Notes under the pieces: generated by a model
Told to the model about the DNA's origin: nothing
Seen by the model: only the letters and a program-made list of their open reading frames with translations
The model's database searches: none
Position numbers and translations under genes: made by a program
From: Cytophagaceae bacterium
Lineage (GTDB): Bacteria > Bacteroidota > Bacteroidia > Cytophagales > Flexibacteraceae
Length of the DNA stretch: 61,149 bases
Direction of reading: 5' to 3'
NCBI GenBank assembly: GCA_027485575.1
Contig: JAIXQU010000130.1
Location: 1-61,149, forward strand
Shown here: positions 3,034-50,648 of the stretch, piece after piece
Layout: every line of letters starts with the position of its first letter
How positions within the stretch are numbered: the stretch's first letter is position 1

Positions 3034-3065
3034 AAAAAAAAAGGCCAGAAACAATTTCTGGCCTT
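3034..3065 (-). terminator. Rho-independent terminator after hpf
   Basis: An 11-bp perfect stem AAGGCCAGAAA / TTTCTGGCCTT with loop CAA on the plus strand. On the minus strand it is followed by an uninterrupted T run. It lies just downstream of the hpf stop and ends the rpsU-xerC-hpf unit. Confidence 0.85.
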
Positions 3066-3084
3066 GTAAATTATTGAGCAAAAA

Positions 3085-3390: not shown

Positions 3391-3413
3391 AGACTTGTTT
3401 TTAAGGTTAATAA

Positions 3414-4365: not shown

Positions 4366-4560
4366 CTAAGAATTTTCTTTCTCTTGCATTTGTTGCTTAT
4401 AAACAGCACGAATAACCTGATTTCTCCTTGCCACGGATGGCTTCATGAAGGCAGAACGCCTTCTAAGTTCTCGAAGAACACCTGTTCTTTCAAATTTCTT
4501 CTTAAACCTTTTGAGGGCTTTATCGATAGATTCGTTTTCTTTTATCGTAATTACAAGCAT
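4366..4560 (-). CDS. rpsU: 30S ribosomal protein bS21
   Basis: A 64-residue protein from the ATG at 4560: MLVITIKENESIDKALKRF, then KFERTGVLRELRRRSAFMKP and a basic tail. This is the standard bS21 layout, and the usual N-terminus is why the longer start (4581) is rejected. bS21 sits on the 30S platform close to the 16S rRNA 3' end and helps initiation. A good promoter places the transcript start only about a dozen bases upstream, and no Shine-Dalgarno-like purine run is seen. It is followed by a hairpin that overlaps the start of xerC. Confidence 0.93.
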   Translation of the reverse strand: MLVITIKENESIDKALKRFKKKFERTGVLRELRRRSAFMKPSVARRNQVIRAVYKQQMQEKENS

Positions 4561-17984: not shown

Positions 17985-18078
17985 ATTCGTAGCAGCGCTA
18001 CGGATACAGAAGAAAAGGCGACTAAGTTTCTGATTTGAAGTAGTTTAGCATCGGAATACCTGCCTGTCGGCAGACAGG
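17985..18078. repeat. Intergenic palindromes
   Basis: Two short stem-loops in a noncoding stretch of about 480 bases: CGTAGC-AGC-GCTACG (17988-18002, extendable by three pairs including a wobble) and CCTGTC-GGCA-GACAGG (18063-18078). Between them is ACTAAGTTTCT (18021-18031), also present in the hairpin array near 50,418. They look like dispersed palindromic elements rather than a terminator. Confidence 0.5.
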
Positions 18079-30873: not shown

Positions 30874-31389
30874 TCAGCCTTTATAATGACTTAAAAAGGA
30901 AAAATTTTGGTCCATATTTTCATAGAAACTTGCCGATGACCAGTAATAGGACTCAGGAATTTGGCAGATACCAGCATTTACTGGGTTCCAATGGATGTAT
31001 TCCAAATTCTGCATAAATACTGAGTGGGAGAATAGCTCCACAGAAAGTGGATTTCTTTGCCAGAACTGATATTTTCTATCCTTTGCATTTACCTCAAATT
31101 GGGAAAGTACATGGGGGTGAAATTCCATCAAATCGAAGCGAATTTTTTGAGCGATAAATCTGAGAAAGTCTCGCTGAATATCCTGGTAAAGATGCGGTGG
31201 TTTTATTTGCCATATCAGATGGATGTGATTTGACAGAATACTAAAAGAGAAAAGGAAAATACGATTGTCTTTCACCAAAAACTGAAGGCTGTCTACTATA
31301 ATCTGTTTGTACTTATCAGGTTTTAGTAAGTGCTTAATCTCATAAATATATGCTGTAAAAAAATGAGGGTACTGGGTTATGATTTCCAT
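30874..31389 (-). CDS. REP-associated tyrosine transposase (RAYT, Y1_Tnp family)
   Basis: A 171-residue protein from the ATG at 31389 (the frame runs to 31545, but the upstream part crosses a flanking hairpin). It has the Y1 transposase HUH motif: SILSNHIHLIWQIKP (HIH), and the RAYT-type C-terminus EYIHWNPVNAGICQIPESYY-WSS, which includes the candidate nucleophilic Tyr. RAYTs are domesticated relatives of IS200/IS605 TnpA acting on REP hairpins. Both sides carry matching GGTG-TTTT-CACC hairpins within 65-100 bases of the gene. Length and motifs look intact. Confidence 0.87.
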   Translation of the reverse strand: MEIITQYPHFFTAYIYEIKHLLKPDKYKQIIVDSLQFLVKDNRIFLFSFSILSNHIHLIWQIKPPHLYQDIQRDFLRFIAQKIRFDLMEFHPHVLSQFEVNAKDRKYQFWQRNPLSVELFSHSVFMQNLEYIHWNPVNAGICQIPESYYWSSASFYENMDQNFSFLSHYKG

Positions 31390-31436
31390 AATGCTGTAAA
31401 TTCGGTGAATCAAAAGATACGCTTCAACATGAATTA

Positions 31437-31455
31437 TTGTTGGTGAAAACACCAA
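31437..31455. repeat. Hairpin flanking the RAYT gene (upstream copy)
   Basis: TTGGTG-AAAA-CACCAA on the plus strand. It is the inverted partner of the hairpin at 30760-30778 (19 identical bases when one is read on the minus strand). It lies 48 bases upstream of the RAYT ATG. Confidence 0.55.
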
Positions 31456-32368
31456 ATATGGTGTAACCATGATACAAAGTTCCGGATGTTGCCAGCTTTG
31501 GAATAATGAAACTATATCCAACGGTATTGACTGGCAAAATGCCATGCTTTAATAAAGTCCAAATAGAATTTACAATTTCTATTTTTAGTTGGACCTCATT
31601 CCAGTTTCTCCAGTGGAGAAATGACTAAGGCAAATTTTAAATTCAAATTAGACTTTATATAATTTATTGAATGACTGATTTTTGTTGGACTTGATTCGCC
31701 TTCGGAGGAAAAAAGTATGTTCCGACAATCAAAGGGTAGAAAGGAACTTTTGGCTTTGATTTTTACGTTTCCAGTTGACCTTTTTACCTGCAAAAGCTTT
31801 TTTTTCAAAAAAAATTAAGACTGAATCAGCAAATGTAAAAGCTGAACCAAACCACCCATAACACAGTTTACGTTATCGATTTTTTTTGGTAATTTATTGC
31901 AAAAAAATGAATGAAAAAAACCACAACTACTTCATTTTCAAACCAATTAATCCTTTTTTGTTTCGTAGAAAACGGATGCAAAACCCCTGTTTCAATTGCC
32001 AAATATTAAAAGTTGAATCATTGCCATTTAAGCCACACAATTCCGTAAAATCCTAAACCTCCATGCCTTGGAATGAAAGTCATTTGATTTCACCGTTAAT
32101 TTTTTACCATCTTTTCACAATTTAATTACTTTTGTGAGATTATCGAATCAAAGCCAGATCAACTAAAAATTTTTTCATGATAAAGCTGTACTAATCCCCT
32201 CATTTATTAGGACTTATAAAAGAAAGTAAAGATTTTATAAAAATTTACTTTGAGGTGGATTACGATTTTCATGTAAAAAGGATTGAGGAAGATTGGCATT
32301 GCCGATATACTTAATGAGATTTATTTTACATCATTCTTACATATACCATCATTTTAATCAAGAAAATT
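31456..32368. other. Long AT-rich intergenic region before the giant gene
   Basis: About 900 bases with no convincing gene. Visible: a perfect stem-loop TTTCTCC-AGT-GGAGAAA (31605-31621) and a consensus -7 box TACTTTTG (32127-32134) about 235 bases before the giant gene, without a good -33 box. A 70-codon minus frame at 31,596-31,808 does not look coding. Confidence 0.45.
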
Positions 32369-35300
32369 ATGAATTTTTCTACTTTAATCAGGTCTGGAAA
32401 TAGGGCTTTGCGTGGCTCTGGTTTTGGGAAAGTGGTTTTAGGGTTGTTGCTGGTGGCTTCGCCGTTTTTGGTGAAAGGACAAACCACCTATGATTGGTTA
32501 AACACTGCCCCGGATGGTAATTTCAGGCAAGGTGCTGCCGGTGCACGCTGGAATCCAGGAGGATTGTTTGACGAACCTCCTTATGGTATCGTTCAGTTTA
32601 ACAACAATAACCAGACGACCATGACAAACAATGTGGCCGGAACCTGGAGTCAGTTTAAATTCAACTTTGGATCTTCGGCCACAACAGGAAGAACTATTGG
32701 AGGTAACACTGTTCAATTTTTCGACTTTGGTGGCACATGGCCTTTTATCCAAAACCAATCTTCAGCTTCCCATACCATCAACTTTCCAATTTTGGTGGGC
32801 ACAGGTGGTACATTTAATCTGGAGCTTGTTGCCAATGCAGGTAACCTCGTTTTTGGTGGTACCTTAGGAAATCAGGGAAAAAATGTATTAGTATATGGAA
32901 ATAATACTGCCATAGATGGGACCAATCGTTCTGTTCGTTTGGGGGGCATCACCAGCGGCGCAGGTAAATTAATTGTTTCCCAATTTGGAGTAGCTAAACT
33001 AAATGTAGCCCACACCTACAGCGGAAACACTGAAATTGACAATGGAGAACTATGGATTGAAACTGGTGGTAGTGCAACAAGCAGTGCTTTTTTTGTAGGA
33101 AACGGTGGTCAATTAGGTAACGTAACCAAGCTTTGGCTTGCCAATTCAACAGGTGGAACAACATTTTCAAACAGCTTCACCATTAACAATGGAAATGCCA
33201 ATACTCGTGAAATTGGCGGTTTAAATTCATCAGGAACGCATACATTTTCTGGTTCCATCACCAACAACTCTACAACCGGAGGTTTATCTGTTAACGCCTT
33301 GAGCGCCGGAGGAACCACCACCCTTTCAGGCGTAGTTTCTGGTGGAGGGGCAATTTCTACTACGGGTTCAGGAACTGTTATTATTTCAGGTGCTTCTCAA
33401 AACACCTACACCAACACATTTACAGCGGGTGCAGCTACAACAGTTTTCAATAAATCTGCCGATACCAGGGCCATAGGAACTGGAAATATGACAATAAATA
33501 CAGGAGTAGCGGTGAGAACCGATGCCAATAATCAATTGGGGACAGGAACTCCTTCTTTAATTACCATAAATGGAACTGGTGTTTTTAACCTAAACAACAC
33601 CAACCAAAAAATTGCTTTAGCTAGTGCTAGCACAACTTCTTCTGTTACACTTGGTAGTGGAACTTTAAATATTGACAATGCCGGAACTGATACCTATGCC
33701 GGTACAATCACCGGTTCTGGTGGCCTTACTAAAACAGGTGCAGGAACACAAATATTATCCAATACAGGAAACAGTTATACAGGTGCTACCACCATTACAG
33801 GTGGTATTTTGCGTTTAGGTGCTTCAGGCGTTATAGCCGATGCCAGCAACGTGGTAATGAACGGTGGTACATTGAGTACGGGTGCTGCTGCCGGTTTTGC
33901 TGAAACGGTAGGTACACTAAGCATGACCGCAAGTTCCACAATTGCATTAGGCACAGGTAGCCATAACTTAACATTTGCCAATAGCAGTGCTACAGCTTTC
34001 ACGGCTGGAACAATATTGACCATCACAGGTTGGACAGGAACCAACAACGGAAATTCTTCTGGAACTGCGGGTCGAATATTTGTTGGCAATTCAGCAGGTG
34101 GGCTAACTGGTTTGCAATTATCAAGAATTCGATTCAACATAAGCTCAGTTCTTTGCGGGGCTATGCAACTTAGCACAGGTGAAGTTGTACCAACAGGAGG
34201 GCCGGTTCAGTATTACGGCGGAGCAACTGGAACATGGACTGGTAATCTTTGGGGTGTAAATGAGCTAGGACCATACACAAGCGTTTGGGTATCAGGTAGC
34301 CATGCCATAATGAATATTGCCAGCGCAAATACTTTAACATTTGCAACAACCAATGTGGCTGCAATTACCTACAACGCCAATATCACTTTTGCTTCTGGCG
34401 GAACTTTTCAAACTGGGCCTTCTGGTGGTGCCATTTGTCCAATTTATGTAGATGCCACTAGAACCTTTACAATGGCGGGGCAAGGAATTTCAACAGCAGC
34501 AGGTTCGGGGTTAATTAAGTTGGGAACGGGAACTTTGCAAAGTACGAATGGTAATACCTATCCTGGTGGTTTTACTTTGAATTCAGGTACAATGGTTGTT
34601 GGAGGGGTAAATGCCATGGGAAATGGCGGTGCATTAAATCTTAATGGCGGTACACTAGGAACGGTTGCCAATAGAAACATTACAGCCAGATATACCGGAA
34701 TTAATATTGGTGGTGATTTCACAATTGGAGATGCAGTAAACAACAGCACTTTCATTTTTGCGGATAATGTTGCCTTAGGAAGTGGTGTTACCCGAACAAT
34801 AACACTTGGAGCTGCAGCGACTCAAACGTTTAATGGCATTATCAGTGGTACAAGTTCAAACTTAGTTTTAGCTGCAACAGCTGCAGGCTCACTTCAATTG
34901 GGTGGTGTAAACACGTATGGAGGAAATACAACAATCAATGGCGGAACATTACGAACCTCCGTAGCAGCCGCACTTCCATCTACAACCAATGTAACTCTGG
35001 CAAATACTGCCGGAGCCAATCTGGATTTGGTAATCAGTAATCAAACAATTGCCTCCATTGCTGGTGGAGGTTCCACAGGCGGAAACATTAGTTTAGGTGC
35101 TACGGTTGCGGCCCTTACTGTTAATCAATCTACCAACACCACATATTCAGGTTTAATCAGCGGAGCTAGTATCGGAGGCCTGATCAAAACAGGTTCTGGA
35201 ATATTGACCCTAGGTCACACGGCCAATACCTACACTGGCCCAACCACAATCACAGCAGGTGAACTTCGGATTAACCCAAGTACAACAACCGGAAGTTTTG

Positions 35301-38300
35301 CCTCCCAGGTGGTATTAAATGGTGGAAAACTTAGTTCCACAGGGATAACCTTAAACACGGTTTGGACAAATTCATCTACATTAAAGCTGGATGCAAACTC
35401 AAGCATAGATCTGGGTTCAAATGTGCATGAGTTAAGATTTGCGGCTTCAGACGCAATTACATGGGGGGCTTTCACCATAACTGTAAATGGCTGGACCGGA
35501 ACGGCTGGGAATTCTGGAGCCACAGGTCGCATTTTTGTTGGAACTACAAATGGTGGACTAATTTCCGGTCAGTTAAGTAAAATAAATTTTGCAGGATATG
35601 GCAGCGGAGCCGTAATTTTATCAACTGGCGAAATAGTTCCAGCCGCTGCTCCTGTCAGCTACACATGGACAGGGGGCGCAGCAGACGGACTTTGGGCCTC
35701 TTCCGGCAACTGGAGTCCAGCTGGAGTGCCTGCTTCAGCTGACCAGGTAACCATAGTAACAGCAGGTACCAATCTTAATTTAGCAGATGCAAGAACCGTA
35801 AACAATGCCGTTTTTAATGGCAACTTCAATGTAACATCAACAGGAAGTTTGACGGTTACAGGAAATGTAACCTATACTTCAGGAACAGGAACCTGGGATT
35901 GTGCAAGTACCTTTACCATGTCCTCTTCTTCGTCGCAAACCATCCCTGCCTACAATTATGGAAATTTAGTGGTTTCAGGTGGTGCCCGAACCTTGGTAAA
36001 TGGTTCTACAACAAGGGTTTGTGGCAACTATACACCCGGCACATCCACAACGGTGACCGGAAGCACTTTTGAGTTTAATGGAACTGCAGCACAGGCCATC
36101 AATAACAATGCGGCTGCTTTTGCGACTTTAAACATCACAAATTCCTCTGCAACAGTGACAGCAAATGCAAACGTCACTGCCTCAACAGCAATGACAGTGG
36201 GAAGCGGCGCTATTTTCAATATGGCATCTGCCACAACTTTAAATGTCAGCAGTGCTACCGTTTTGGTTACGGGTACTTTAAGAAACTCAAGTGGAAACAG
36301 TATTACCCAAACCAGTGCCACTGTAACGATTAATGGAACCTATGACCACAATATGAATGGAGGAGCAGTCCTTTCCGGAACATGGGGTGGGTCTTCTAAT
36401 TTCTTAATAAACACCGGAGCAACAACGGCATTACCTGCCAGTAATCTGGGACAATCTTTTAACGATGTAACAATAAATGCGGCCCTTATTGGCACGCAAA
36501 ATTTTGGTGCAGCACTTACCACCATCGGAAGGGACCTCATTGTGAATGGAACTGGTTCTACCATAGGATTAACAGCAACAACTGCCTATGCCGGAACAAT
36601 CGGTCGGAATTTCACTATCAATGCAGGAAATATAACCTTAGTAACAGGTAACAATACCAGCAATGCTTCATTGGCTGTAACTGGAAATGTGAGCATTAAT
36701 GGTGGTGGGTTAACGGTTGCCGGCGGTTCATCTTCAGGAACTGGAACAGCCGCATTAACAGTCGGAGGAACTTTTTCCAACTCATCTTCAACAGGAACTT
36801 CTTTTGTGCTGAATGGCGGATCAAAAACAGGAGTAACAGCAACCATTACAGGCCTTTACACACAATCTGGTTCTGGAACTTCCTCTTTGGGTCAAAATAC
36901 TTCAGGGGCAGCTACGCTTACTTGTAATGGAGGGATTACCATCTCAAATGGAACATTCAATGTAGCCAACGGTGGGCCTGCAACTTTAACAGTTGCCGCC
37001 GCCAATACATTGACGGTAAGCGGAGGAACATTAATTGGTTCAGCTACTGCACATATTAGCACAATCAATGCCAATGGCAATGTGACCGTAAGTTCAGGAA
37101 TATTGACTTTGGCCAATATTGCTTCCTCAACTTCTAATATGACCATGGCAAACAACAATACCATGACTGTCAGTGGTTCAGGAACAGTAAATGTGGCTGT
37201 TGCGGGAATTGGAAATTTAAATGTGGGTACAAGTACAAGCACGGTCACTACAACGGCTTTAACAATCAATGGAGGTTCCTTAGTTATAGCCAGTGGCGGA
37301 ACAGGTACCGTTAATAGCTATGCTGATTTGAATTTAACCAGCGGTTCGATGAGCAGAAGTTTAGGAACTGCGGTTTTCAATTTTCTAAAACCAGGAGTTG
37401 ACCCAGTTATACCTGGAAACCATGTTATTACGCAATCTTCTGGGACTATTTCAGGAATCATTGCTATGAATGTGGGTTCTGGTGCAGCAAATTGGCCATT
37501 GCTGACTCTTGGTTCTTCAACCATCAATATTGGAGCAAATACTACTTTAACAATTACCGCCAATGCCAAAATTGACTGTGGAGCCACAAATGTTCTAACT
37601 GGCTTAACCTTTACCCTTGCCACGCAGGGAACTTTAATCACAGCAAATACTGCAGGAATTACAACCGGAGCTTCTGGTTCAATTCAAACAACCAACAGAA
37701 ATTTTGGAACCTTAGGATATTTCATTTATAATGGAACAAGTGCTCAGGTTACAGGAAACGCATTTCCAGCCAGCTCTGCTATTTTTTCGATATTTAATTC
37801 AGCGGGAGTAACTTTAACATCCTCCCATACCATTTTCGCCGGAGGCCAGTTCATTTTATTCCTTTCACCTTTGGGAGGCTTTTTGGATTTGGCAGGGAAT
37901 AACTTAACCATTCAAAACACGGCTACCATAGTTGGTGCCTCATCTTCAAATTATATCAGAACAAGTGGCGCAGGAAGATTAATCCGAACCGTTGGAACCT
38001 CTGTTCTTTTTCCAATCGGAACAAGTGCAGGTTACAACCCACTTCTATTAAGTTCAGGAACCAGCGATACCTATGCCGTAAGGGTTATAAATGGTGCAAT
38101 CAGTGGGAATACTACCCCAAATGACATTACAAAAACAATTAACCGTCTTTGGGAAGTAACTGAAGGAACTGCAGGTGGAACGGCCACAATAGTTGCAGCC
38201 TATAATGTTGGTGAAGAAAACAATGCAGGTGTATTTAATGCTGCTTCTCAGCGATATATCGGTATTGCAAATGGGCCGGGGGTTAATAGTTTTTCCCAAG

Positions 38301-41300
38301 TAGTAACAGCTACAGGTACCACCACTTTTACCGCTTCAGGAAGCATGACACCAACGGTTGCCTCTTATTTTATTGGTCTTGGCAAGGACGACGGTTTGGT
38401 TTCGCCAATTACCACTTATACCTGGACCGGACTGGCAGGAGATAATGCCTGGACAAGTCCAAACAATTGGAGTCCAAATACTAGTGCAGCTGGTCCAACT
38501 GCCATTGACCATGTCATAATCAATATTGCCACCGCTCCATTGATTATTTCAGGAAGCAGAACCATATCCAATTTTGAGCTTTCCGGAACCGGAACTTTCA
38601 GTATGGCGGCTTCAAGTACTTTAACCATAAATGGTGATTTGACTTATAACGGTTCTTCAGGGGCCACTGCCACGTTTGACTGCAGCAGTACTTTGAATAT
38701 AACCAGTTCATTATCTCAGCCGATTCCTCCATTAAATTATGGAAATCTCAATGCCTCAGGAGGTGCCAGAAACTGGTCTTCTACCGGTACCATAGGTATT
38801 TGCGGAATCTTTACACCAGGTAGTTCAAATAACATTTCAACTTCAACAGTAAATTTTAATGGTGCAGCCGGGCAAACCATAAATGCAATTAATTATTTTA
38901 ACCTAACCAATTCATCCAACACAACCCGTACCCTTGGTGCTGGCACTATTGATATTGCCAATTCATATACACCAACCACGGCTGTAACAAGTCCAGGCAC
39001 TGGTACGGTAAATTTTAGCAGTGCATCAGTAAATCAAACCATTCCTTGTTCCAATTATTTCAACATTACCAATACTGGTAATTTCAACAGGACACTAGCT
39101 TCCACTGGAGCAAACACAAATAAAATCACCGTAGCCGGGACCTTTACTTTTGGGACGGGCCCATATACCATCGGAACCAGCACTGTTGAATATACAGGTG
39201 CTGGATATAATTTAACAGCTTTTACGTATTATAATGCCATTTTCAATGGTTCTGGAATATTCAGTTTGAGCGGCAATACGATAACCGTTAATAACAATTT
39301 CAATGCTACTGCCGGGACTGTAATAATTGGATCAAGTGGAGGTAATGGGATACTTAATGTCAATGGAACATTGACGATAGATGGAGGCACTTTAAATACA
39401 ACCAATACCACAACAGCTGGAACCATAAATTTATTAGGTAATTTTGGAATTAGCGCTGGAACAATGACAAAATCAGGGTCAGGAACCGGAACTGTTAATT
39501 TTATACATGCCAGCAATCCACAAACTTTTAATCAAAGTGGGGGCACCATTTCTAATGCGAACAATTGGAACTTTGGAAATGGCTCAGTTGCCAATACTGT
39601 ACAGTTTACGTCAAATGTTTCGGCAAGCACTGGTGTATTTAATGTAAACTCAGGAACTACAGTTGACTTAGGAGCAAATCAATTAACGGTTACTTCAGGA
39701 ACCTTTAATCTAAACTCAGGTGCTAGTTTTATAACTACCAATGCTGCTGGAATTTTAGCAGGCGCAACAGCAGTCTCTGGCTCAATACTAAGAGGGGCTT
39801 CTAGTTCTTTCTCATTTAATACAGGAGCAAACTATACATTTGGTGGAGCAAACACAGGTACGGGATTTACGGGTGCCAACAATTTAACTATCAACAATGC
39901 TTCAAATGTTACTTTAACATCTTCTGCAACAGTATCTGGGACACTTACTTTTTCAAATGGAATATTAATTCTTGGTGCAAATACCTTAACCGCTAATGGA
40001 TCTGTTTCAGGTGCAGGAGCTACCAGATATGTAAGAACCAGTGGAACAGGAAGATTGATAAAATCGGTCAGTTCATCTCCCGTTTTGTTCGAAGTTGGAA
40101 ATTCTGCTTATAATCCCATTACAATTGCAAATTCAGGTACCAGTGATGTACTGGGAATTGCAGTGGCTGATGCCATTAGTCAAACACTTAATAATTCCAG
40201 CAATGTTGTTAACCGAAGCTGGACCATCACTGAAGGAACAGCTGGCGGAAGCAACCTGGCTGTAACCACACAATGGAATAGTCCGGGAGAGGAAGCGGCT
40301 GGATTTACAGCTGGTTATGCAGCTGGTACAAAGCGTTTGGCAGTCTGGACTGGTTCAAACTGGACACAAGTAGCTGTAAGTTTTTCTGGTGCGGGTACAA
40401 AAACTTTTTCCACCAGTACAAACTTTTTACCTGCAACCTTAACTCCTGGCACTTATACAATAGCAGCGGGTATTGATGATGCATTTATTTGTACAGCCCC
40501 ACCAACCATAACCAGCTTCCTGCCAACCAGTGCTTACGCCGGTGATGCAATTACCATTACCGGAACTGGCTTAACGGGATTAACAGTTGCTTCTATAGGA
40601 GGAATAAACGCCACAATTGGGACTCAATCCGGGACTTCTGTTGTGTTAACCGTTGGTCCAGGCGCTTCAGGAAACATTATTTTGGGCACCAATGCATTAT
40701 GTACGGCTACCAGTAGTGGAACTTTTACCTTTTCAGGATTCATTTCCACCCAGAGTGGTCCATGGGGAACGGGAGCAACATGGCGAGGAGGAAATGTGCC
40801 AACCACTCCTGGAGCCACAGTAGTTATTGATGCGACACACAATGTTACTTCCAATGTAGCATCCAATCCAGCATCAATTACTGTAAATTCTACTGGAACG
40901 CTTACATTAACCAATTCAGCAAGGTTGGGAACCAGTGCCAGCACGGCAGTTGTAGTAGATGGTACCTTAACATGTCCGGTTTCGGTAATTGGCGCATCCA
41001 ATGGCATGTATTGCAATACTTTAACAATCAACAATGGTGGTATTTTCAACAACAATGCCGGAAACGCAGATGCCATTTCAGCCCTTACTTTTACAGTAAA
41101 TGCAGGTGGAACATATAACCATGATGCTGTCAGTAGTAGTACAAATGCAAATACTTTTGACATGGCAGGAGGAACCAGCGGAAATTTTTTCAATGCGGAT
41201 GCCACTGTGAATATAACCAAATGGGGGCAAACAGGAAACACCCCTACGGCTCCATTTCCAACCTCAGCAACAGGAACTTATGGAAATTTAACCATAAATA

Positions 41301-44300
41301 TTACTGGCCAGGTATATACTGGAGCATGGAATATTCAGGGAGGAATCACAAATACCAAAAACTTCACCATTATTGGAACAGGTTCAAGGGAATTACGGAT
41401 TTTTACAAATGCAGCAGGTGGAACATTGAATGTTAGTGGAGATATGAGCGTTACCGGAGGAATAACAGCCCTTCTGAATTCTGGTTCAACATGTTCAGGA
41501 AGCTGTCCAAACGCAGTACTTAATGTTTCCGGCAACTTTAGTGTATCAGGCGGGACATTTGATTTAACTGGTATCAGTGGGAATAGTACAACCGGAAATA
41601 CAACGATTAACCTATTTGGTAACTGTTCTATTTCTGGTGCAGGCCAAATTCGTCGAACAACTGCCAACTCAGGAACCAATGCCATTCGCTTTGTAAAAAA
41701 CGGAGGACAAACCTTTTCTACCACAGCTACTGGAATCAATACCAATGTGGTAAACATCGACATTGGTGCTGCTGCCGCTCCTGCTTTACCAGTATCTACA
41801 GTTCAGATGCTTAGCAATATTCCAATGAACGCTGGTGCTACAATGACTGTGTTCCAAAATGCCACTTTGGATGCCAGAGCGGAGCGTACTGTAACCGGAG
41901 GAACTTTCACCATGAATACGGGTGGTCAAATCAGAATTGGCTCACAACAAGGAATCGTTTCATCAGCTTCTGGTTCGCCCAACAATGGAAACATCAGAAC
42001 AACTACCCGAAATTATAACGGTGGAGGAAATTATTCATACTGCAGCTTTACCAACAATCAGACTACCGGAGATGGATTGCCAACGACCATAACGGGTGTC
42101 TTGAAAATTGCCAACTCAGGTACAACTTCTAACAAAACTGTCACCTTAACCACAGTTCCTACCACCACGACAACTTTAACACTTGATTCCGGTTTCTTTG
42201 AAGCTGGCGTAGGGGGAACTATTAACATAGCCGCAGGCGGGACTGTTATCCGAACTGCTACGGGAACCGGCGATTTTGCAACGGGTTCGAGTGCAGGAAC
42301 AGTTAACTTTAATGGTGCGGGCTCTTTCTCAGGAAGCTCTAATCCTTACAATGTAACGATCAATACAGGAGCTGTAAACTTTGGGGCTGACGTGGTAACC
42401 ATTCAAAACGGAGGTACTTTCCAGATTAATGGGGGAAATGTAGGTTCATCAAACCCTCCTTATTATGCGGTTGGTTCTACATTGAGATACAATACAGGTT
42501 ACGGTCGCTTTGACGAATGGAATTCAACCAGTGGCAGAGGATACCCACACCATGTCAGAATTAGTGCAGGAACATTTGACCTTGGAAGTGGTGGTTCGGC
42601 AAACCGACAATGTGGTGGGAATCTCACCATAGATGATGGCACCACTTTTACAATGAGTGCAATGGCTAATTCATTAACAGTTTCAGGCAATGTGACTATG
42701 GGTTCTGCCGCAACAGCAACATTGACACTTTCTTCAGCTATGGGTGGTGACCTTTATGTGGGTGGGAACTGGACACGAAATGCTACGTCAACTTTAAATA
42801 CCAATAGCAGAGAAGTTATTTTCAATGGTACTGCTGCTCAAAGCTTTACTGGTGTTACAACATTCGATTATATACGGATGAACAACAATTCGACCGGACT
42901 AACTCTTAATAACAACATGATTGTTAATCAGCGATTGCAGATAGATGACGGCCAGATAATCCTTGGAACCAACAATATTACATTGAATGGATCTGCTTTT
43001 GTTACCGGAGGAGGGGCTTCTGATTTTATCGTAACCAACAGCACCGGGGTTTTAAGTCAGCCTGTTGTCAATGGTGAAGGAGACAATTGGTTTCCGGTTG
43101 GGCCTTCTACTAACATTTTTGGCCCGGTTACATTGAACAATACAGGAGCAGGTACAGATAATATTTCAGTCCGGGTTCGGGACATCCGTGCTATTGCCAG
43201 CCCAACCTACACCAATGCTGTAAATGACACTACACAGATGGTAAAAATGGAATGGTTTATGAACGAAGGAACACCGGGCGGCAACAATATCAGAACCACT
43301 TTTGGATGGCAAGGTGCTGGCACTGCCGGTGCAGGCAATGTCGAAGGCTCTGGTTTTGACAGAACCAGTGGTGTCTATCACGGAAATTACAATGGAACAA
43401 AATATGTAGTGAGGGCAGCCAATGCAACAGGAGGCTCCAACCCATGGTTTAGCCTATCAACAATCGCACTTCCATACACAGGGAATCTAAGTAACCAGGC
43501 ATTTGTGGTTGGAAATATCAATGGCATTTTGCCTTGTTTCCAGACCTTACTGGCTGGCGATTGGAATACCAGTACAAACTGGGTAGATCTGTCAGTTCCA
43601 CCATTGGACGCCACTGTATGTCTGAACCATGCAATGACTCTGGCTTCTGCTCCACCAAATCCATCCGGAGTTACCATCAATGCCGGAGGTTCTGTTGCTA
43701 TAAACAACGGGGTTACTTTAACATTCGAACCCAATGCATTTTTCACCAATAGCTCAGGGTCTTTCAAGAACATGACAACCGGAACCATTCAATTCTCAGG
43801 ATTGGCTGTGGTGAACGGAGCAAATGCGATTGGATTTAATAATCTTCAGCTGAAAGACAATACCACATTTACTACCACACCAACCATCAACAATGAATTG
43901 GAAATATTGCCAGGTGGGTTTGTCATTTCAGCAGGTAGTGTAAATTATGGAGCTTCGTCAACCTTAAAATACAATACAGGTGGCCCTTACAGCAGAAGTA
44001 ATGAATGGAGAGCAACCTCTGGTGCGGGCTACCCCGCCAATGTTTTGGTAACTGGAAATACTTCTTTAAATCTGGATGCAGGAACCGGCGTAAACCGAAT
44101 GATTCAGGGCAATATGCAGATTGACAATGGTTCTTCAGTGACTCAGGGTGCTACTGGATTTAACCTTACAGTTCCTGGAAATTTCACATTGAATGGTGGC
44201 TATACCCAATCGACCACTTTTGGAGGAGATTTGGTTTTAGGCGGCAATTGGAGTTCTGCATCAACGGCTACCCTAACGGCAAACAACAGAGATGTTCGAT

Positions 44301-46873
44301 TTAACGGAACCAGCAGTACACAAACCATTGCAAACCTGGCTTCTGGCTTGCAGTTTGGCTTTTTGACAGTGGACAATACCTCGGTTGGAGGCGTTGATTT
44401 GATGAACACAATTACTGCCAATACTTTCCGTGTAAATGCATCCAGAACATTTAGTCTTACTTCTGACAAAATCATTATTTCTCCAGGCGGAAACGTTCAG
44501 ATCAACGGAACTTTTAATGCAGGATCGGGAACCATTGAATATACCAATGGAGGTAATTTTACCAACGATGGGACATTCAACAGGGGAACAAGCACAGTTG
44601 ACTTTTTGAGTACCACACCCGGAGTAGTGGTTGGTTCAGTACAAACCAATTTCCATAACTTAAGACTTGCTCCGAGTGGGTCGGTTAATTTCAATTCCGG
44701 AGCCTTAAGGGGTAGGGTTTCCGGAACCTTGCAAATGAGGGCCGGAAGTTTCTGTATAGGAAATGCACCAATTTATGAAGCAGGTTCAAAACTGATGTAT
44801 TCTGGTGGTGGCACTTTCAACAGAAATGTTGAGTGGGATCCAACTACCCTTCAAAAAGTTGAAGTAACCAACAACACAACCTTAAAATGTGGTCCAAATG
44901 GAACAGGCTTTTCACATGTGATGGCCGATTCACTCATCATTCAATCTGGTTCAACTTTTGACATGAGTGGTCCGGATATGACAGCTTCAACTGTGGTCGG
45001 AGGAAATGTTCATCTCAGGGGAACATTAACACTTTCCAATACAGCTGGTGGAGATTTAGAAGTTGCCGGTGACTGGCAAAATGATGGCGGTACTTTCAAC
45101 TCCAATGGCAGGCTTACCACCTTTAACGGTTCATCGAACGGATCCATCAAGGGTTCATCCAACACCACATTCAGCTTCCTGACTGTAAATAAGGGAATCA
45201 ATAAAACGCTTACCGCCTCCGTTCCATTTACGATTTCCCGACCTCCTGGAGGAACAACACTTCAGATTTCGGGTGGAATCTTTGATTTGAATGGCCAGAC
45301 TTTAAGTTTGGGATCTGGAAGCAATACATTGAGAATTGATGCCGGTTTTACAAACGGCCAAACATTAAGAACCGGAGGAACAAGTATAACAGCATTCTCT
45401 AATTTCAGAAGCAATGGTTCCAATACCGATACCCTAGGTGGAAAAGTTGACTATTCCGGCTCTGGTGCGGAAACACTAATTTCACCAGTGAAAGGATATA
45501 ATTTGTTATGGATAACAGGTGGCTCAACCAAAACCATCAGTCAAAATACAAGGGTGAATGACAGCCTTTGGATTGCGCCTTCTACCACTTTGGATTTTGG
45601 TGCATCTGCTTCAATTTTGGAATCCAAAGGAAATGTGGTAAACAATGGCTCGACCATTGGTTCTGGGACTGGAAAAATAGAATTGAAAGGTTTGGCTGTC
45701 CAAAACATTAGTGGAAACGGTACGTACAGAAATCTGGATGTGAACAATACCAACAACGTAAACAGTACAGGCACCCCTACCATTTCAAGCAAATTGAATG
45801 TGGTTATTGGAAAAATTCTACAGGCCTCAGCTTCTGATAGTATAACGCTTGGTTCAAGTGCAACGATTACCGAAATTATTGGTGGAGGTGAGCATTTCGT
45901 CCGTGGGAAATTATCTACGACCAGAACTGTTGGTACGGCGGCAGAAACTTTTGGTGGAATGGGAATAGAATTAACTGCAGGAGCCAATTTAGGAACCGTT
46001 ACCGCAACCCGGCAATCAGGAATTGCTCTTACCGGCACAGCATCATGTTGTTCCGGATTTACATCCATCAATAGAAATTGGGTAATTAAACCTTCTGTTC
46101 AACCATCTTTAGCTGACAGAAATTTGACTCTTACATGGCAGTCTGAGGATGACAATGCTATGGATATGACAAATCTTCAATTATGGAAAAGATCAAGTAC
46201 GGCTTCTCCCTGGGAAAGTATTGATGCGACACAGGATGTTTCCTTAGGAAATCCAAGGTCAGCTTCCTGGACCGGTGTTTCAAGTTTCTCACAATTTACC
46301 GGTGCAGACCTAAGTAATCCATTGCCACTTGGATTGATATCGCTTTCCGGTAAAAACGAAAACGGCAATGGTTTATTAACCTGGAGGGTGGAAAATGGAA
46401 CAAATCATTCCATTTATAAAATATATAAATCAACAGATGAAAAGAATTTTTCTGAAATTGGTTTGGTAGTTGCCAAAGAGAATAACAATCAGAATTCATA
46501 TCAGTTTACTGACAAGGATTTGAAAAAAGACAGTTACTATAGAATTCAATTGGTTCAAAAAGATGGAAAAGCAGAAGTATCCCAAACTGTTGCTATCAGG
46601 ACCGATGCCTTTGGAAAACCGCAAATCAGGATGTATCCAAACCCAACCAGTGGCGGGGCAAGAATATTAATGGATGGCAACTTCAACAATGAAGGAATGA
46701 TGTCTTTTGAAATATTTGGTATGGATGGAAAAGCAAATGGAAAATTGGCTGGTGAGTTCAATGAGATCAATCAGAAATTTGAAAACTTCACTTCTACCTT
46801 GCCAGCCGGAATGTATCAGGTAAAGATTACATCTGCTGACCAGGTAAAAACTTTGAAACTCATTAAGAGATAA
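32369..46873 (+). CDS. Giant modular secreted adhesin-like protein with type IX sorting tail
   Basis: 4,834 residues in one uninterrupted frame. Signal peptide: KVVLGLLLVASPFLVKGQ. The body is Gly/Thr/Ser/Asn-rich beta-strand repeat, predicted to form a long beta-helix. Autotransporter-associated strand repeats occur near 451 (GGLTKTGAGTQILSNTGNSY), 711, 831 and 936 (GGLIKTGSGILTLG). About five super-modules start with Trp-rich segments near 41, 1098 (YTWTGGAADGLWASSGNWSP), 2017 (YTWTGLAGDNAWTSPNNWSP), 2792 and 3723. Most end in a W-x-x-EGT-x-GG segment (about 1929, 2617, 3630). An IPT/TIG-like segment is near 2710-2790. Residues 4652-4745 resemble the beta domain before sorting tails; 4752-4834 (IRMYPNPTSGGARILMDGNF to LKLIKR) is a type A sorting domain. 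Cell-surface adhesion is inferred; there is no autotransporter barrel. Confidence 0.9.
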   Translation: MNFSTLIRSGNRALRGSGFGKVVLGLLLVASPFLVKGQTTYDWLNTAPDGNFRQGAAGARWNPGGLFDEPPYGIVQFNNNNQTTMTNNVAGTWSQFKFNFGSSATTGRTIGGNTVQFFDFGGTWPFIQNQSSASHTINFPILVGTGGTFNLELVANAGNLVFGGTLGNQGKNVLVYGNNTAIDGTNRSVRLGGITSGAGKLIVSQFGVAKLNVAHTYSGNTEIDNGELWIETGGSATSSAFFVGNGGQLGNVTKLWLANSTGGTTFSNSFTINNGNANTREIGGLNSSGTHTFSGSITNNSTTGGLSVNALSAGGTTTLSGVVSGGGAISTTGSGTVIISGASQNTYTNTFTAGAATTVFNKSADTRAIGTGNMTINTGVAVRTDANNQLGTGTPSLITINGTGVFNLNNTNQKIALASASTTSSVTLGSGTLNIDNAGTDTYAGTITGSGGLTKTGAGTQILSNTGNSYTGATTITGGILRLGASGVIADASNVVMNGGTLSTGAAAGFAETVGTLSMTASSTIALGTGSHNLTFANSSATAFTAGTILTITGWTGTNNGNSSGTAGRIFVGNSAGGLTGLQLSRIRFNISSVLCGAMQLSTGEVVPTGGPVQYYGGATGTWTGNLWGVNELGPYTSVWVSGSHAIMNIASANTLTFATTNVAAITYNANITFASGGTFQTGPSGGAICPIYVDATRTFTMAGQGISTAAGSGLIKLGTGTLQSTNGNTYPGGFTLNSGTMVVGGVNAMGNGGALNLNGGTLGTVANRNITARYTGINIGGDFTIGDAVNNSTFIFADNVALGSGVTRTITLGAAATQTFNGIISGTSSNLVLAATAAGSLQLGGVNTYGGNTTINGGTLRTSVAAALPSTTNVTLANTAGANLDLVISNQTIASIAGGGSTGGNISLGATVAALTVNQSTNTTYSGLISGASIGGLIKTGSGILTLGHTANTYTGPTTITAGELRINPSTTTGSFASQVVLNGGKLSSTGITLNTVWTNSSTLKLDANSSIDLGSNVHELRFAASDAITWGAFTITVNGWTGTAGNSGATGRIFVGTTNGGLISGQLSKINFAGYGSGAVILSTGEIVPAAAPVSYTWTGGAADGLWASSGNWSPAGVPASADQVTIVTAGTNLNLADARTVNNAVFNGNFNVTSTGSLTVTGNVTYTSGTGTWDCASTFTMSSSSSQTIPAYNYGNLVVSGGARTLVNGSTTRVCGNYTPGTSTTVTGSTFEFNGTAAQAINNNAAAFATLNITNSSATVTANANVTASTAMTVGSGAIFNMASATTLNVSSATVLVTGTLRNSSGNSITQTSATVTINGTYDHNMNGGAVLSGTWGGSSNFLINTGATTALPASNLGQSFNDVTINAALIGTQNFGAALTTIGRDLIVNGTGSTIGLTATTAYAGTIGRNFTINAGNITLVTGNNTSNASLAVTGNVSINGGGLTVAGGSSSGTGTAALTVGGTFSNSSSTGTSFVLNGGSKTGVTATITGLYTQSGSGTSSLGQNTSGAATLTCNGGITISNGTFNVANGGPATLTVAAANTLTVSGGTLIGSATAHISTINANGNVTVSSGILTLANIASSTSNMTMANNNTMTVSGSGTVNVAVAGIGNLNVGTSTSTVTTTALTINGGSLVIASGGTGTVNSYADLNLTSGSMSRSLGTAVFNFLKPGVDPVIPGNHVITQSSGTISGIIAMNVGSGAANWPLLTLGSSTINIGANTTLTITANAKIDCGATNVLTGLTFTLATQGTLITANTAGITTGASGSIQTTNRNFGTLGYFIYNGTSAQVTGNAFPASSAIFSIFNSAGVTLTSSHTIFAGGQFILFLSPLGGFLDLAGNNLTIQNTATIVGASSSNYIRTSGAGRLIRTVGTSVLFPIGTSAGYNPLLLSSGTSDTYAVRVINGAISGNTTPNDITKTINRLWEVTEGTAGGTATIVAAYNVGEENNAGVFNAASQRYIGIANGPGVNSFSQVVTATGTTTFTASGSMTPTVASYFIGLGKDDGLVSPITTYTWTGLAGDNAWTSPNNWSPNTSAAGPTAIDHVIINIATAPLIISGSRTISNFELSGTGTFSMAASSTLTINGDLTYNGSSGATATFDCSSTLNITSSLSQPIPPLNYGNLNASGGARNWSSTGTIGICGIFTPGSSNNISTSTVNFNGAAGQTINAINYFNLTNSSNTTRTLGAGTIDIANSYTPTTAVTSPGTGTVNFSSASVNQTIPCSNYFNITNTGNFNRTLASTGANTNKITVAGTFTFGTGPYTIGTSTVEYTGAGYNLTAFTYYNAIFNGSGIFSLSGNTITVNNNFNATAGTVIIGSSGGNGILNVNGTLTIDGGTLNTTNTTTAGTINLLGNFGISAGTMTKSGSGTGTVNFIHASNPQTFNQSGGTISNANNWNFGNGSVANTVQFTSNVSASTGVFNVNSGTTVDLGANQLTVTSGTFNLNSGASFITTNAAGILAGATAVSGSILRGASSSFSFNTGANYTFGGANTGTGFTGANNLTINNASNVTLTSSATVSGTLTFSNGILILGANTLTANGSVSGAGATRYVRTSGTGRLIKSVSSSPVLFEVGNSAYNPITIANSGTSDVLGIAVADAISQTLNNSSNVVNRSWTITEGTAGGSNLAVTTQWNSPGEEAAGFTAGYAAGTKRLAVWTGSNWTQVAVSFSGAGTKTFSTSTNFLPATLTPGTYTIAAGIDDAFICTAPPTITSFLPTSAYAGDAITITGTGLTGLTVASIGGINATIGTQSGTSVVLTVGPGASGNIILGTNALCTATSSGTFTFSGFISTQSGPWGTGATWRGGNVPTTPGATVVIDATHNVTSNVASNPASITVNSTGTLTLTNSARLGTSASTAVVVDGTLTCPVSVIGASNGMYCNTLTINNGGIFNNNAGNADAISALTFTVNAGGTYNHDAVSSSTNANTFDMAGGTSGNFFNADATVNITKWGQTGNTPTAPFPTSATGTYGNLTINITGQVYTGAWNIQGGITNTKNFTIIGTGSRELRIFTNAAGGTLNVSGDMSVTGGITALLNSGSTCSGSCPNAVLNVSGNFSVSGGTFDLTGISGNSTTGNTTINLFGNCSISGAGQIRRTTANSGTNAIRFVKNGGQTFSTTATGINTNVVNIDIGAAAAPALPVSTVQMLSNIPMNAGATMTVFQNATLDARAERTVTGGTFTMNTGGQIRIGSQQGIVSSASGSPNNGNIRTTTRNYNGGGNYSYCSFTNNQTTGDGLPTTITGVLKIANSGTTSNKTVTLTTVPTTTTTLTLDSGFFEAGVGGTINIAAGGTVIRTATGTGDFATGSSAGTVNFNGAGSFSGSSNPYNVTINTGAVNFGADVVTIQNGGTFQINGGNVGSSNPPYYAVGSTLRYNTGYGRFDEWNSTSGRGYPHHVRISAGTFDLGSGGSANRQCGGNLTIDDGTTFTMSAMANSLTVSGNVTMGSAATATLTLSSAMGGDLYVGGNWTRNATSTLNTNSREVIFNGTAAQSFTGVTTFDYIRMNNNSTGLTLNNNMIVNQRLQIDDGQIILGTNNITLNGSAFVTGGGASDFIVTNSTGVLSQPVVNGEGDNWFPVGPSTNIFGPVTLNNTGAGTDNISVRVRDIRAIASPTYTNAVNDTTQMVKMEWFMNEGTPGGNNIRTTFGWQGAGTAGAGNVEGSGFDRTSGVYHGNYNGTKYVVRAANATGGSNPWFSLSTIALPYTGNLSNQAFVVGNINGILPCFQTLLAGDWNTSTNWVDLSVPPLDATVCLNHAMTLASAPPNPSGVTINAGGSVAINNGVTLTFEPNAFFTNSSGSFKNMTTGTIQFSGLAVVNGANAIGFNNLQLKDNTTFTTTPTINNELEILPGGFVISAGSVNYGASSTLKYNTGGPYSRSNEWRATSGAGYPANVLVTGNTSLNLDAGTGVNRMIQGNMQIDNGSSVTQGATGFNLTVPGNFTLNGGYTQSTTFGGDLVLGGNWSSASTATLTANNRDVRFNGTSSTQTIANLASGLQFGFLTVDNTSVGGVDLMNTITANTFRVNASRTFSLTSDKIIISPGGNVQINGTFNAGSGTIEYTNGGNFTNDGTFNRGTSTVDFLSTTPGVVVGSVQTNFHNLRLAPSGSVNFNSGALRGRVSGTLQMRAGSFCIGNAPIYEAGSKLMYSGGGTFNRNVEWDPTTLQKVEVTNNTTLKCGPNGTGFSHVMADSLIIQSGSTFDMSGPDMTASTVVGGNVHLRGTLTLSNTAGGDLEVAGDWQNDGGTFNSNGRLTTFNGSSNGSIKGSSNTTFSFLTVNKGINKTLTASVPFTISRPPGGTTLQISGGIFDLNGQTLSLGSGSNTLRIDAGFTNGQTLRTGGTSITAFSNFRSNGSNTDTLGGKVDYSGSGAETLISPVKGYNLLWITGGSTKTISQNTRVNDSLWIAPSTTLDFGASASILESKGNVVNNGSTIGSGTGKIELKGLAVQNISGNGTYRNLDVNNTNNVNSTGTPTISSKLNVVIGKILQASASDSITLGSSATITEIIGGGEHFVRGKLSTTRTVGTAAETFGGMGIELTAGANLGTVTATRQSGIALTGTASCCSGFTSINRNWVIKPSVQPSLADRNLTLTWQSEDDNAMDMTNLQLWKRSSTASPWESIDATQDVSLGNPRSASWTGVSSFSQFTGADLSNPLPLGLISLSGKNENGNGLLTWRVENGTNHSIYKIYKSTDEKNFSEIGLVVAKENNNQNSYQFTDKDLKKDSYYRIQLVQKDGKAEVSQTVAIRTDAFGKPQIRMYPNPTSGGARILMDGNFNNEGMMSFEIFGMDGKANGKLAGEFNEINQKFENFTSTLPAGMYQVKITSADQVKTLKLIKR

Positions 46874-48272: not shown

Positions 48273-49241
48273 TCAGAAAGCGTGGTTCTTTACCGCAATT
48301 ATCTGTGCAGCAATGCTAATCGCAATTTCTTCAGGCGTCTGGCTTTTAATATACATTCCAACCGGAGCAAAAATGGATGACAGCCAATTTTCATCAAATC
48401 CTTCTGATTTGTAATCGTTCATCATTTTTTCTATCTTCTTTTTGCTGCCCAAAACGCCTAGAAAAGCAAACTTTTTATCCTTCAAAGCCCTGATGGCAAG
48501 GTCGTCGGTTCGATATCCAAATGACATGATGACGACAAAATCAGTCGGGTTTTCAGGAATGAGTTCAGACAAGTTTGTGAAGTCGGAAACAACTACCTTT
48601 TCAAAAACAAACTGATTTTCAGCCATTGTATTAAGATTGGGCCGGTCATCGTACAAATGGATTTGAAAATCCATCATGGCCATAATTTTGCTAAAAGCGA
48701 GGGAACAATGGCCTGCGCCAACAATATGCAAGCGAGGCCGGAACCCAACCGATGCAGCATAAAACCAATCGTTTTCTGAAAAAACGATGGATTCAGGTTT
48801 TTGGAAAGTTTGGTTGGATTCAAATTCAATGCCTTCAGTTTTTAAAGTCAGGGTTCCCGTTTCTCCCTTTTCAAAGTTTGTAACCAGTTTTTTAACAGCC
48901 TCTAAATCTGTGTTTTGTAACGGATAAATGAGTATGGTCTGTTCACCGGAGCAGATCAAACCACTTTGTTGTTTTGGGGCAGACTTGTCATGGATTTGCC
49001 TGTGGATAGAAATTTCAGCACCGGCCTTTCTGAGCATCTCCTTTGCCCTTTCTACAAACTTATGTTCCATTATCCCGCCACCAATAGAACCCTCCAATTC
49101 TCCATTTTGGTTTACGGCCATACAAAATCCTTCCCTCCCTGGACTGCTGCCCAGGCTTTCAATCACATACAAAAGAACCGTTGGAATTTTGAGCTCCAGA
49201 TTTTTCCGGATAAAATGCCATGTTTCAAGATTTCTCCCCAC
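48273..49241 (-). CDS. XdhC/CoxI-family protein
   Basis: A 322-residue protein with the XdhC_CoxI N-terminal region (VIESLGSSPGREGFCMAVNQ, GSIGGGIMEHKFVE, GLICSGEQTILIYPL) and the C-terminal Rossmann domain (PRLHIVGAGHCSLAFSKIMA, VVIMSFGYRTDDLAIRALK, LGVLGSKKKIEKM). The family delivers sulfurated molybdenum cofactor to xanthine dehydrogenase-type enzymes; none is encoded here. The start codon is GTG at 49241 (no better ATG). Function at this locus is unproven. Confidence 0.85.
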   Translation of the reverse strand: MGRNLETWHFIRKNLELKIPTVLLYVIESLGSSPGREGFCMAVNQNGELEGSIGGGIMEHKFVERAKEMLRKAGAEISIHRQIHDKSAPKQQSGLICSGEQTILIYPLQNTDLEAVKKLVTNFEKGETGTLTLKTEGIEFESNQTFQKPESIVFSENDWFYAASVGFRPRLHIVGAGHCSLAFSKIMAMMDFQIHLYDDRPNLNTMAENQFVFEKVVVSDFTNLSELIPENPTDFVVIMSFGYRTDDLAIRALKDKKFAFLGVLGSKKKIEKMMNDYKSEGFDENWLSSIFAPVGMYIKSQTPEEIAISIAAQIIAVKNHAF

Positions 49242-49271: not shown

Positions 49272-49439
49272 TCAAATATCACATTCGAAATGCTGGAATT
49301 TTGCAATCCATGTATGTTGATACTAAGTTTTTAAAACACTCAGAATTGGCGTAACTCAATGCCGAACCATGATTATTGCGAAAGATAAAAATGGCGTATA
49401 AACCGTTTGGGAGACAGTTAAACTTATTAAAATTCCTGA
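49272..49439 (+). repeat. Diverged direct repeat, copy A (downstream side of the toxin-antitoxin pair)
   Basis: Bases 49272-49370 align without gaps to 50367-50465 (offset 1095; about 49 of 61 identical over 49309-49369). 49378-49439 aligns to 50586-50647 (about 55 of 62 identical). The three hairpins present in copy B are decayed here: only 5 of 7 pairs remain in the first, two mismatches in the second, and the third is lost. It lies between xdhC and the PIN gene; no coding frame. Confidence 0.7.
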
Positions 49440-49473: not shown

Positions 49474-49893
49474 TTATTGATTTGAGAGAACTAAAACAAA
49501 TTCTTGTGGGCTCAATACAGGGATTTCAGAGCCGGAATAGTCTTTTGGGTTTCGTGTAACAATGGCGGAAACTGTGACCGCAGCTCCAGCCGAATATTGA
49601 ACAGCATCTTCAAAATCCTTCCAACCCAATGCGAGAGCCGCAAGAATTGTTTCTTTGCTCACCGTTACGATATTCAAAATTTCAATCAAATTGGTGATAA
49701 ACCCAGTGGCCAAAACGTTTCCAATTTTATTTGAAATTATGTAATATACATCGGTTATGGAAGATGCCGACATATATATAGCTATCTGCTTATCCTGGGC
49801 GGCCTGGAAAATGATTTTTGCATCATCATAATAAGGCATTCTGGCAAGTGCGATATCAACGATAATGTTGGTATCAAGCAACACATCTCTCAT
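49474..49893 (-). CDS. PIN-domain toxin (VapC-like ribonuclease)
   Basis: A 139-residue PIN domain with the usual acidic set: LLDTNIIVDI (D7), SITDVYYI, KDFEDAVQYSAG and VTRNPKDYSGSEIPVLSP. PIN toxins are Mg2+-dependent RNases that cut tRNA or rRNA. It follows the antitoxin gene with an ATGA overlap, the standard order for this toxin type. All key residues are present, so it is probably functional. Flanked on both sides by diverged direct repeats. Confidence 0.87.
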   Translation of the reverse strand: MRDVLLDTNIIVDIALARMPYYDDAKIIFQAAQDKQIAIYMSASSITDVYYIISNKIGNVLATGFITNLIEILNIVTVSKETILAALALGWKDFEDAVQYSAGAAVTVSAIVTRNPKDYSGSEIPVLSPQEFVLVLSNQ

Positions 49894-50132: not shown

Positions 50133-50200
50133 GATGTTTTCTATTTGAATCCAAAATTAACCAATTTAGACAAGATTATGCAGTCGAATTTATCTCACCT

Positions 50201-50230
50201 GTCCTGAGTTTTCCGAAGGGAACTGAGGAC
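50201..50230. repeat. Imperfect inverted repeat at the edge of the hairpin array
   Basis: Arms GTCCTGAGTT and AACTGAGGAC (one mismatch) around TTCCGAAGGG. It is the first structured element upstream of the antitoxin gene; an 8-bp palindrome GTTCGAAC lies further along at 50289-50296. Confidence 0.4.
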
Positions 50231-50274
50231 GATTAATATAGACAGTACCTCAGGTTAGGTGGGCGCTCGTCGGG

Positions 50275-50456
50275 CGAGGTTCTACCTCGTTCGAACTATT
50301 TTCTGGCCTCCGGCCAACATACTCCGTTCACTGTTTGGCAAAGACTTAGTCTTTATCAGTGTGAATTCGAATGTTACATTCGACAAGATCAATTTCTGAA
50401 AACCATGCATCTTGAAACTAAGTTTCTAAAACACTCCGACGTAGAGTAACTCTACG
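50275..50456. repeat. Array of six perfect stem-loops with three-base loops
   Basis: Six hairpins, each with a different stem and exactly three unpaired bases: CGAGGT/ACCTCG (50275-50289), TGGCC/GGCCA (50304-50316), AAAGAC/GTCTTT (50340-50354), TCGAATG/CATTCGA (50367-50383), GAAAC/GTTTC (50414-50426) and CGTAGAG/CTCTACG (50440-50456). Centres are 50282, 50310, 50347, 50375, 50420 and 50448, so spacings are 28, 37, 28, 45, 28. No T run follows any of them. The last three belong to direct-repeat copy B. Function unknown. Confidence 0.75.
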
Positions 50457-50648
50457 CCGAACAATGGGTTTTATTTAATAAATTGATTTACAGATTTTAC
50501 AGATCAAGAATATAGCATTGGCAACATTTGGCAGAAAAATTGCGAGACCATGGATTTGGCCACTTGGTGCATAATCAGCGTAAATGCGAAAGATAAAAAT
50601 GGCGTTAAAACCGTGTGAGAGACAGTTCAACTTATTAAAAGTTCTGAG
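50367..50648 (+). repeat. Diverged direct repeat, copy B, split by a 120-base segment
   Basis: 50367-50465 and 50586-50648 match copy A at 49272-49439. Copy A has only 7 bases between the two parts; copy B has 120 (50466-50585), an AT-rich segment with no coding character. The toxin-antitoxin genes lie between the two copies. Confidence 0.7.

Follow-up and report, generated by a model that had tools for sequence, protein, structure and literature searches.

What are the six small perfect hairpins, each with a three-base loop, that crowd positions 50275–50456 of a contig from a Cytophagaceae bacterium? A sequence-only reading of the window (the whole 61,149-nt stretch of DNA analysed here) had described these hairpins, their spacing and the lack of an open reading frame behind them, all of which we found in place; it had also proposed selection on structure, with a structured RNA or a single-stranded DNA substrate, such as REP or attC sites, among the possible identities.

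The hairpin array and its repeat unit

The hairpins lie at 50275–50289, 50304–50316, 50340–50354, 50367–50383, 50414–50426 and 50440–50456, with centres at 50282, 50310, 50347, 50375, 50420 and 50448 and hence spacings of 28, 37, 28, 45 and 28 nt, and no ORF of 60 aa or longer extends over them. They occupy a 975-bp gap between divergently transcribed genes: to the left, a gene read leftwards (50132–49890) encodes an 80-residue protein that looks like the antitoxin of the adjoining PIN_3-domain gene (49893–49474), and to the right a gene is read rightwards from 51107. The array is the densest cluster of perfect 3-nt-loop hairpins in the window; taken alone, this density is mildly unusual and weak evidence, with at least six hairpins in 170 nt reached in 3 of 150 Markov-simulated windows (about 1 in 50), a frequency that would leave room for small palindromes clustered by chance.

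A DNA search of the organism's own genome with the array region returned 15 further partial matches, most of them spanning one or two elements; these aligned into a single unit of first hairpin, linker and second hairpin with 28 nt from loop to loop. The earlier statement that the hairpins have no shared repeat unit is therefore wrong at genome scale, since counterparts of the hairpin pairs exist at many other genomic positions. The array consists of three copies of a two-hairpin repeat, with a decayed copy nearby and a further hairpin in front (Table 1). An element measures about 50 nt. A G[C/T]T foot at its 5′ end is followed by the first hairpin (about 10 bp), which about 7–11 nt of linker separate from the second (about 7 bp); the loops are of 3–4 nt and start with T in both hairpins. 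E1 belongs to a second family with the same layout as the E2/E3 class, having copies in all five of five genomes of the genus, and D0 to a third, whose second hairpin has been lost in the window copy.

Table 1. Repeat elements in and near the 975-bp gap (window coordinates; those of minus-strand parts run in the 5′ to 3′ direction of the element).
Element	Position	Strand	Description
D0	50199–50232	+	one hairpin, GTCCTGAGTTTTCCGAAGGGAACTGAGGAC, corresponding to the first half of REPs in the family that flanks the own-genome RAYT gene G000:C121 on both sides
E1	50268–50316	+	putative twin-hairpin REP; foot CGT 50268–50270; first hairpin 50271–50293 (10 pairs including G-T, loop TCT); second hairpin 50304–50316 (loop TCC)
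E2	50331–50389	+	putative twin-hairpin REP; covariance model R1, 73.7 bits; foot GTT 50333–50335; first hairpin 50336–50358 (loop TTA); second hairpin 50367–50383 (loop TTA)
E3	50406–50464	-	putative twin-hairpin REP; R1, 81.5 bits; foot GTT 50462–50460; first hairpin 50459–50437 (loop TTA); second hairpin 50426–50414 (loop TTA)
E2(+)/E3(-) doublet	50331–50464	.	head-to-head, REPIN/BIME-like
E4	49311–49369	-	decayed copy of the E2/E3 class, between xdhC (48273–49241) and the PIN-domain gene (49474–49893); R1, 56.7 bits

A covariance model (R1) built from 16 own-genome copies of the E2/E3 class found about 30 copies (E < 1e-3) in the 3.9-Mb genome, a modest number for REPs, as well as 10, 12, 19 and 6 copies in four relatives of the order (G001, G004, G029 and G084, respectively). 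Within the window its only full-length matches were E2, E3 and E4; the hairpin at 17,988–18,031, which had been considered related, is not a copy, and an 11-mer that it shares with the array has a chance expectation of about 0.07. E3 has near-identical copies at C51 and C189, and the E2/E3 doublet has a sister at C51:6952–7088 (89% identity over 136 bp). Among neighbouring R1-class pairs from the own and related genomes, 14 of 20 are likewise ordered plus then minus, that is, as head-to-head doublets like those of REPINs, with starts 96–99 nt apart in G029. What is conserved as a unit is one pair of hairpins, which occurs singly, in tandem and in either orientation. We also observed a 63-bp duplicate, 89% identical, at 50585–50647 (beside E3) and 49377–49439 (beside E4), also matched at C186:5444, which could be either another kind of repeat travelling with the E elements or a local duplication.

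Aligned copies of the E2/E3 class vary in a compensatory manner. The 16 own copies, in a MAFFT alignment made without the model, had changes on both sides in 10 of 17 pairs and 92% of cells paired, a level not reached in any of 500 shuffles. With 83 distinct copies, drawn from relatives and RAYT loci as well as from the own genome (alignment A3, fitted to the model, so that its pair counts lean towards the structure), compensatory changes affected 14 of 17 pairs and 94% of cells were paired, again with none of 500 shuffles as high; covariation was 0.489 compared to 0.155 in shuffled alignments and 0.04–0.10 in slid controls. Judged from these alignments, the structure of the class is conserved while the sequence of its stems varies, as had been anticipated in the sequence-only reading; the copies and compensatory changes that a covariance-model search might have failed to find were both abundant, and the proposal was not refuted. 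Because there are some 30 own copies with compensatory changes, in addition to equal spacing, we consider the reading as a chance cluster refuted and its probability negligible; on this evidence it is homology, rather than density, that decides that the array is not due to chance.

The same compensatory changes would also be expected if the six hairpins were parts of one structured non-coding RNA with constant geometry, and the array region indeed folds better than its shuffles. Its fold energies, however, are alike for the two strands (z of -3.6 and -3.4) and thus make no case for one RNA strand. Rfam covariance models matched only tRNAs over the whole window at the gathering threshold, and gave no credible match in the array region at relaxed thresholds. 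Moreover, the conserved unit is a single pair found alone, in tandem and in both orientations, even on both strands within this one array, and it is constantly associated, in inverted placement, with RAYT genes (see below). These observations make a structured RNA very unlikely and lend no support to an attC site, leaving from the identities first offered that of REP sites, or single-stranded DNA substrates.

RAYT genes flanked by twin-hairpin elements

RAYTs are REP-associated HUH tyrosine transposases, domesticated from single-stranded DNA transposases. The genome contains several Y1 transposase genes: those at C61, C15 and C138 are IS200-like, and the proteins from C121, C189 and C31 score above the NCBIfam REP_Tyr_transpos cutoff and below the IS200 cutoff. 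The motifs NHxH and Y-x-H-x-NP are invariant in our RAYT alignment (A1), and the predicted fold of one own RAYT has as its best match among solved structures 4er8, a RAYT bound to a REP hairpin.

The RAYT genes of family relatives carry inverted two-hairpin elements on both sides, with stems that differ gene by gene. This was found for both twin-hairpin classes of the array in G004, a sister species of the organism of the window. At G004:C187, E1-class elements at 2664–2710 (+) and 3267–3310 (-) flank a RAYT gene (2722–3249), the first one ending 11 bp before its start and the inverted one lying past its end; this RAYT has SHIH in place of NHxH. At G004:C149, E2/E3-class elements at 4372–4430 (+) and 5056–5114 (-) flank a RAYT gene that is decayed, with two stop codons. 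In the own genome, REPs of the D0 family flank the RAYT gene of C121: D0 is a 93% match to C121:5672–5711, about 110 bp upstream of the gene start, and an inverted copy, adjoining GGGAC-gga-GTCCC, lies downstream.

A cognate RAYT of the E2/E3 class was absent from the own assembly, whose best relatives are 43–53% identical to the Emticicia protein. The RAYT of C189, with an E3-like copy 180 bp downstream, was considered as cognate and rejected, because this copy does not have the orientation of a downstream flank and because different hairpins accompany the gene itself; the last codons of this gene (..LLELAEF; L029 1330–1380) lie within its flanking hairpin, and the gene end thus overlaps the REP. 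A repeat in two parts, GCCGATT-tgc-AATCGGC and its partner GACATT..AATGTC, was noted at L026 and L037 (C31) and at L002; it flanks the RAYT of C31, recurs elsewhere and is likely the REP of this RAYT.

Within these genomes, RAYTs of a different clade have single-hairpin flanks (GGTTCGAG-tcct-CTCGAACC), and the difference between single- and twin-hairpin flanks of the two clades may reflect a contrast in specificity, as seen at few loci only. The window itself contains a RAYT-like gene of another clade at 30874–31545 (-), which scores 63 bits with REP_Tyr_transpos (below the cutoff of 80) and is adjoined by single-hairpin repeats, with TTTGTTGGTG-aaaa-CACCAACAAA downstream and a similar one in G003:C59. 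Close to this gene there is also a dispersed repeat (31596–31660, also at L016, about 1568, and L019, about 1390) with the hairpin TTTCTCC-agt-GGAGAAA in a conserved AT-rich sequence of 70 nt, and further on an ORF of 4834 aa (32369–46873, +), repetitive and adhesin-like, with a type-IX-secretion-like tail at its end.

The IS200-like genes of the genome, together with the recognition of IS200/IS605 ends, too, in the form of single-strand hairpins (PMC6006769), raise the alternative that the elements are MITEs mobilised by the organism's own classical IS200/IS605-type TnpA and not by a RAYT. Nevertheless, the flanks of the IS200-like genes have other hairpins, with no R1-class element seen there, and the twin elements flank RAYT genes instead; the three own RAYTs also fall on the RAYT side of the profile cutoffs. 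We therefore regard a TnpA-driven MITE as improbable.

Layout of elements beside RAYT genes across Bacteroidota

A single scan yielded 80 related RAYT loci, nearly all from Bacteroidota, of which we used the 74 with an intact frame. Hairpins with a stem of at least 7 bp and a 3-nt loop occurred at 2.65 per kb within 350 bp of the RAYT gene and at 0.15 per kb at a distance of 1 kb, an enrichment of about 17-fold. The spacing of neighbouring hairpins beside these genes peaked at about 28–32 nt, and such a peak (28–31 nt) in other genera further argues against chance. Hairpin pairs 26–33 nt apart were found in 36 of the 74 loci compared to 1 of 74 far control stretches; this is a strict test of perfect stems, and the other loci have imperfect or larger-loop hairpins, or none. 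Loops starting with T prevailed on the top strand upstream of the gene (72 vs 30) and on the bottom strand downstream (69 vs 26; Fisher p ~1e-9); this inversion of loop polarity around the RAYT gene indicates that the elements face it from both sides.

For foot and stem statistics we used 46 oriented pairs from 29 loci, selected for T-first loops. The first stem was mostly of 10 bp and the second of 5–8 bp, and a foot preceded the first hairpin at offsets -13 to -11 (G in 28, C or T in 43 and T in 41 of the 46); the second hairpin is without a G[C/T]T foot. Both hairpins share as majority pattern the apex R-T-Y / T-N-N / R-A-Y, of which only the flanking letters are informative, the initial T having been preselected. 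E2, E3 and E4, which were not used to derive the foot, have GTT at exactly the predicted offset; E1 has CGT in the window and GCT in its RAYT-flanking copy from G004.

Although built from own copies only, R1 matched RAYT flanks in Paludibacter, Emticicia, a Chitinophagaceae bacterium and two further Bacteroidota. The matches at L107, L115, L098, L118 and L126 face the RAYT gene, L119 being the exception. On the RAYT tree, those with R1-class flanks are clustered (4 changes, against a mean of 5.9 after shuffling; 6 of 500 shuffles as low), which lends modest support to REP element and RAYT gene travelling together. At L126 (Chitinophagaceae bacterium LY-5), about eight two-hairpin elements follow one another in tandem (3060–4160), directly downstream of the RAYT gene.

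Identity, proposed mechanism and known systems

With a probability of about 0.87, the array is a cluster of REP elements of the subclass-2.6 (group-5) RAYT type of Bacteroidota, partly arranged as REPIN-like doublets. This reading draws on the repeated copies, their compensatory changes and mostly intergenic sites, the inverted placement at cognate RAYT genes and the phylum-wide layout. Subclass 2.6 was assigned from motifs and phylum, not by the profile of that classification: the proteins are Bacteroidota RAYTs with NHxH, WQ and YIHxNP, and the secondary structures flanking their genes lack GT[AG]G. The elements also share the traits of REPtrons, namely short palindromic repeats in many, mostly intergenic copies, inverted and family-specific RAYT flanks, an HUH-Y1 gene product and inverted doublets; the GT[AG]G foot that defines canonical REPs is missing.

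The intergenic bias is pronounced, with 6 of 30 R1 copies overlapping an ORF of at least 100 aa compared to 61% of random places (24 of 30 outside, compared to 39%). Such a bias would also fit a regulatory or chromosome-organising scaffold, with the hairpins kept as protein-binding sites or mRNA-end structures, and roles of this kind have been proposed for some Proteobacterial REPs (PMC2817692, PMC3733652). Yet the array is not a 3′ end, because its flanking genes are divergent, its placement is not shared with the relatives examined, and the inverted pairs around RAYT genes would be left unexplained; this alternative thus appears about as unlikely as a structured RNA. As to movement of the elements, we found no clean empty site in genus comparisons or for the C134 and C38 copies: similarity to G001 upstream of the putative antitoxin gene ends at window position 50183, immediately in front of D0, but a different gene forms the other flank, which disqualifies the place as a clean empty site; for the C134 and C38 copies, no homologous sequence extended across the element.

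For REP elements, dispersal, near-identical copies at unrelated places and linkage to RAYT genes lead us to infer their mobilisation by RAYTs as single-stranded DNA. By analogy with work on RAYTs and IS200/IS605 (summarised in PMC6006769), the hairpins would form on single-stranded DNA, and the HUH protein would read hairpin and foot and cut nearby. Here, the hairpins would fold when the strand is single, as in the lagging-strand template, the RAYT would recognise both as one substrate and the G[C/T]T foot would guide cleavage by its HUH/tyrosine centre, after which the element could be copied or moved to intergenic sites elsewhere. In the 975-bp gap, elements belonging to at least three RAYT families would have landed side by side; no role for the neighbour genes would be needed, any effects on their transcription being by-products. 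Joint reading of the two hairpins is suggested by their fixed spacing and shared apex. We consider it somewhat more probable than the opposite that group-5 RAYTs recognise a bipartite substrate, formed by two different hairpins in direct order, 28–31 nt apart, with a shared apex RTY-TNN-RAY and a G[C/T]T guide only at the foot of the first, which would make these elements a REP class with a recognition rule of its own, unlike the single-hairpin GTAG type.

The closest known elements are the subclass-2.6 (group-5) REPs, also from Bacteroidota, found on both sides of the RAYT gene and elsewhere in the genome, without a GT[AG]G foot and with cognate proteins having NHxH and Y[IL]HxNP motifs (PMC6006769). 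They were found by manual inspection and are described as ‘atypical secondary structures’ without GTAG, with ‘weaker secondary structure’, and the main text of that work does not describe the twin-hairpin layout, the spacing of 28–31 nt, the T-first loops or the G[C/T]T foot (PMC6006769). The kind of element is therefore already known, although poorly described, and the twin-hairpin, spacing, loop and foot rules seem to be additions to that main text. Our search found no literature on RAYTs in Flavobacterium. Proteobacterial GTAG/CGTC REPs and BIMEs/REPINs (PMC3733652, PMC3116915) are similarly short, palindromic and intergenic, with RAYT-tied families and inverted doublets, but have one hairpin and a GTAG-type foot, whereas here there are two different hairpins in direct order and another foot. 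The ‘double foot’ REPs of subclass 2.4, also RAYT-associated and present in Bacteroidetes, have one long hairpin with a foot at each end instead of two hairpins (PMC6006769).

The ends of IS200/IS605 elements (IS608, ISDra2) also share single-strand hairpins, a related HUH/Y1 protein and a foot guide, and the predicted RAYT fold matches those structures; however, there is no element here with left end, gene and right end, and the proteins are of the RAYT family. In integron attC sites, which are recombination substrates formed by folded single strands, structure is conserved and sequence varies. The array shares both of the latter properties, but its cognate is a RAYT and not a tyrosine-recombinase integrase.

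With the combination of a G[C/T]T foot, a 10-bp hairpin, about 28–31 nt to a 7-bp hairpin and T-first loops as a rule, these elements can be located computationally throughout a large phylum, and the rule indicates which positions to mutate when binding or cleavage is assayed. A mechanistic question arises as well, since the RAYT of E. coli has been studied as a monomer on one hairpin, whereas its relatives in Bacteroidota would act on a substrate of two.
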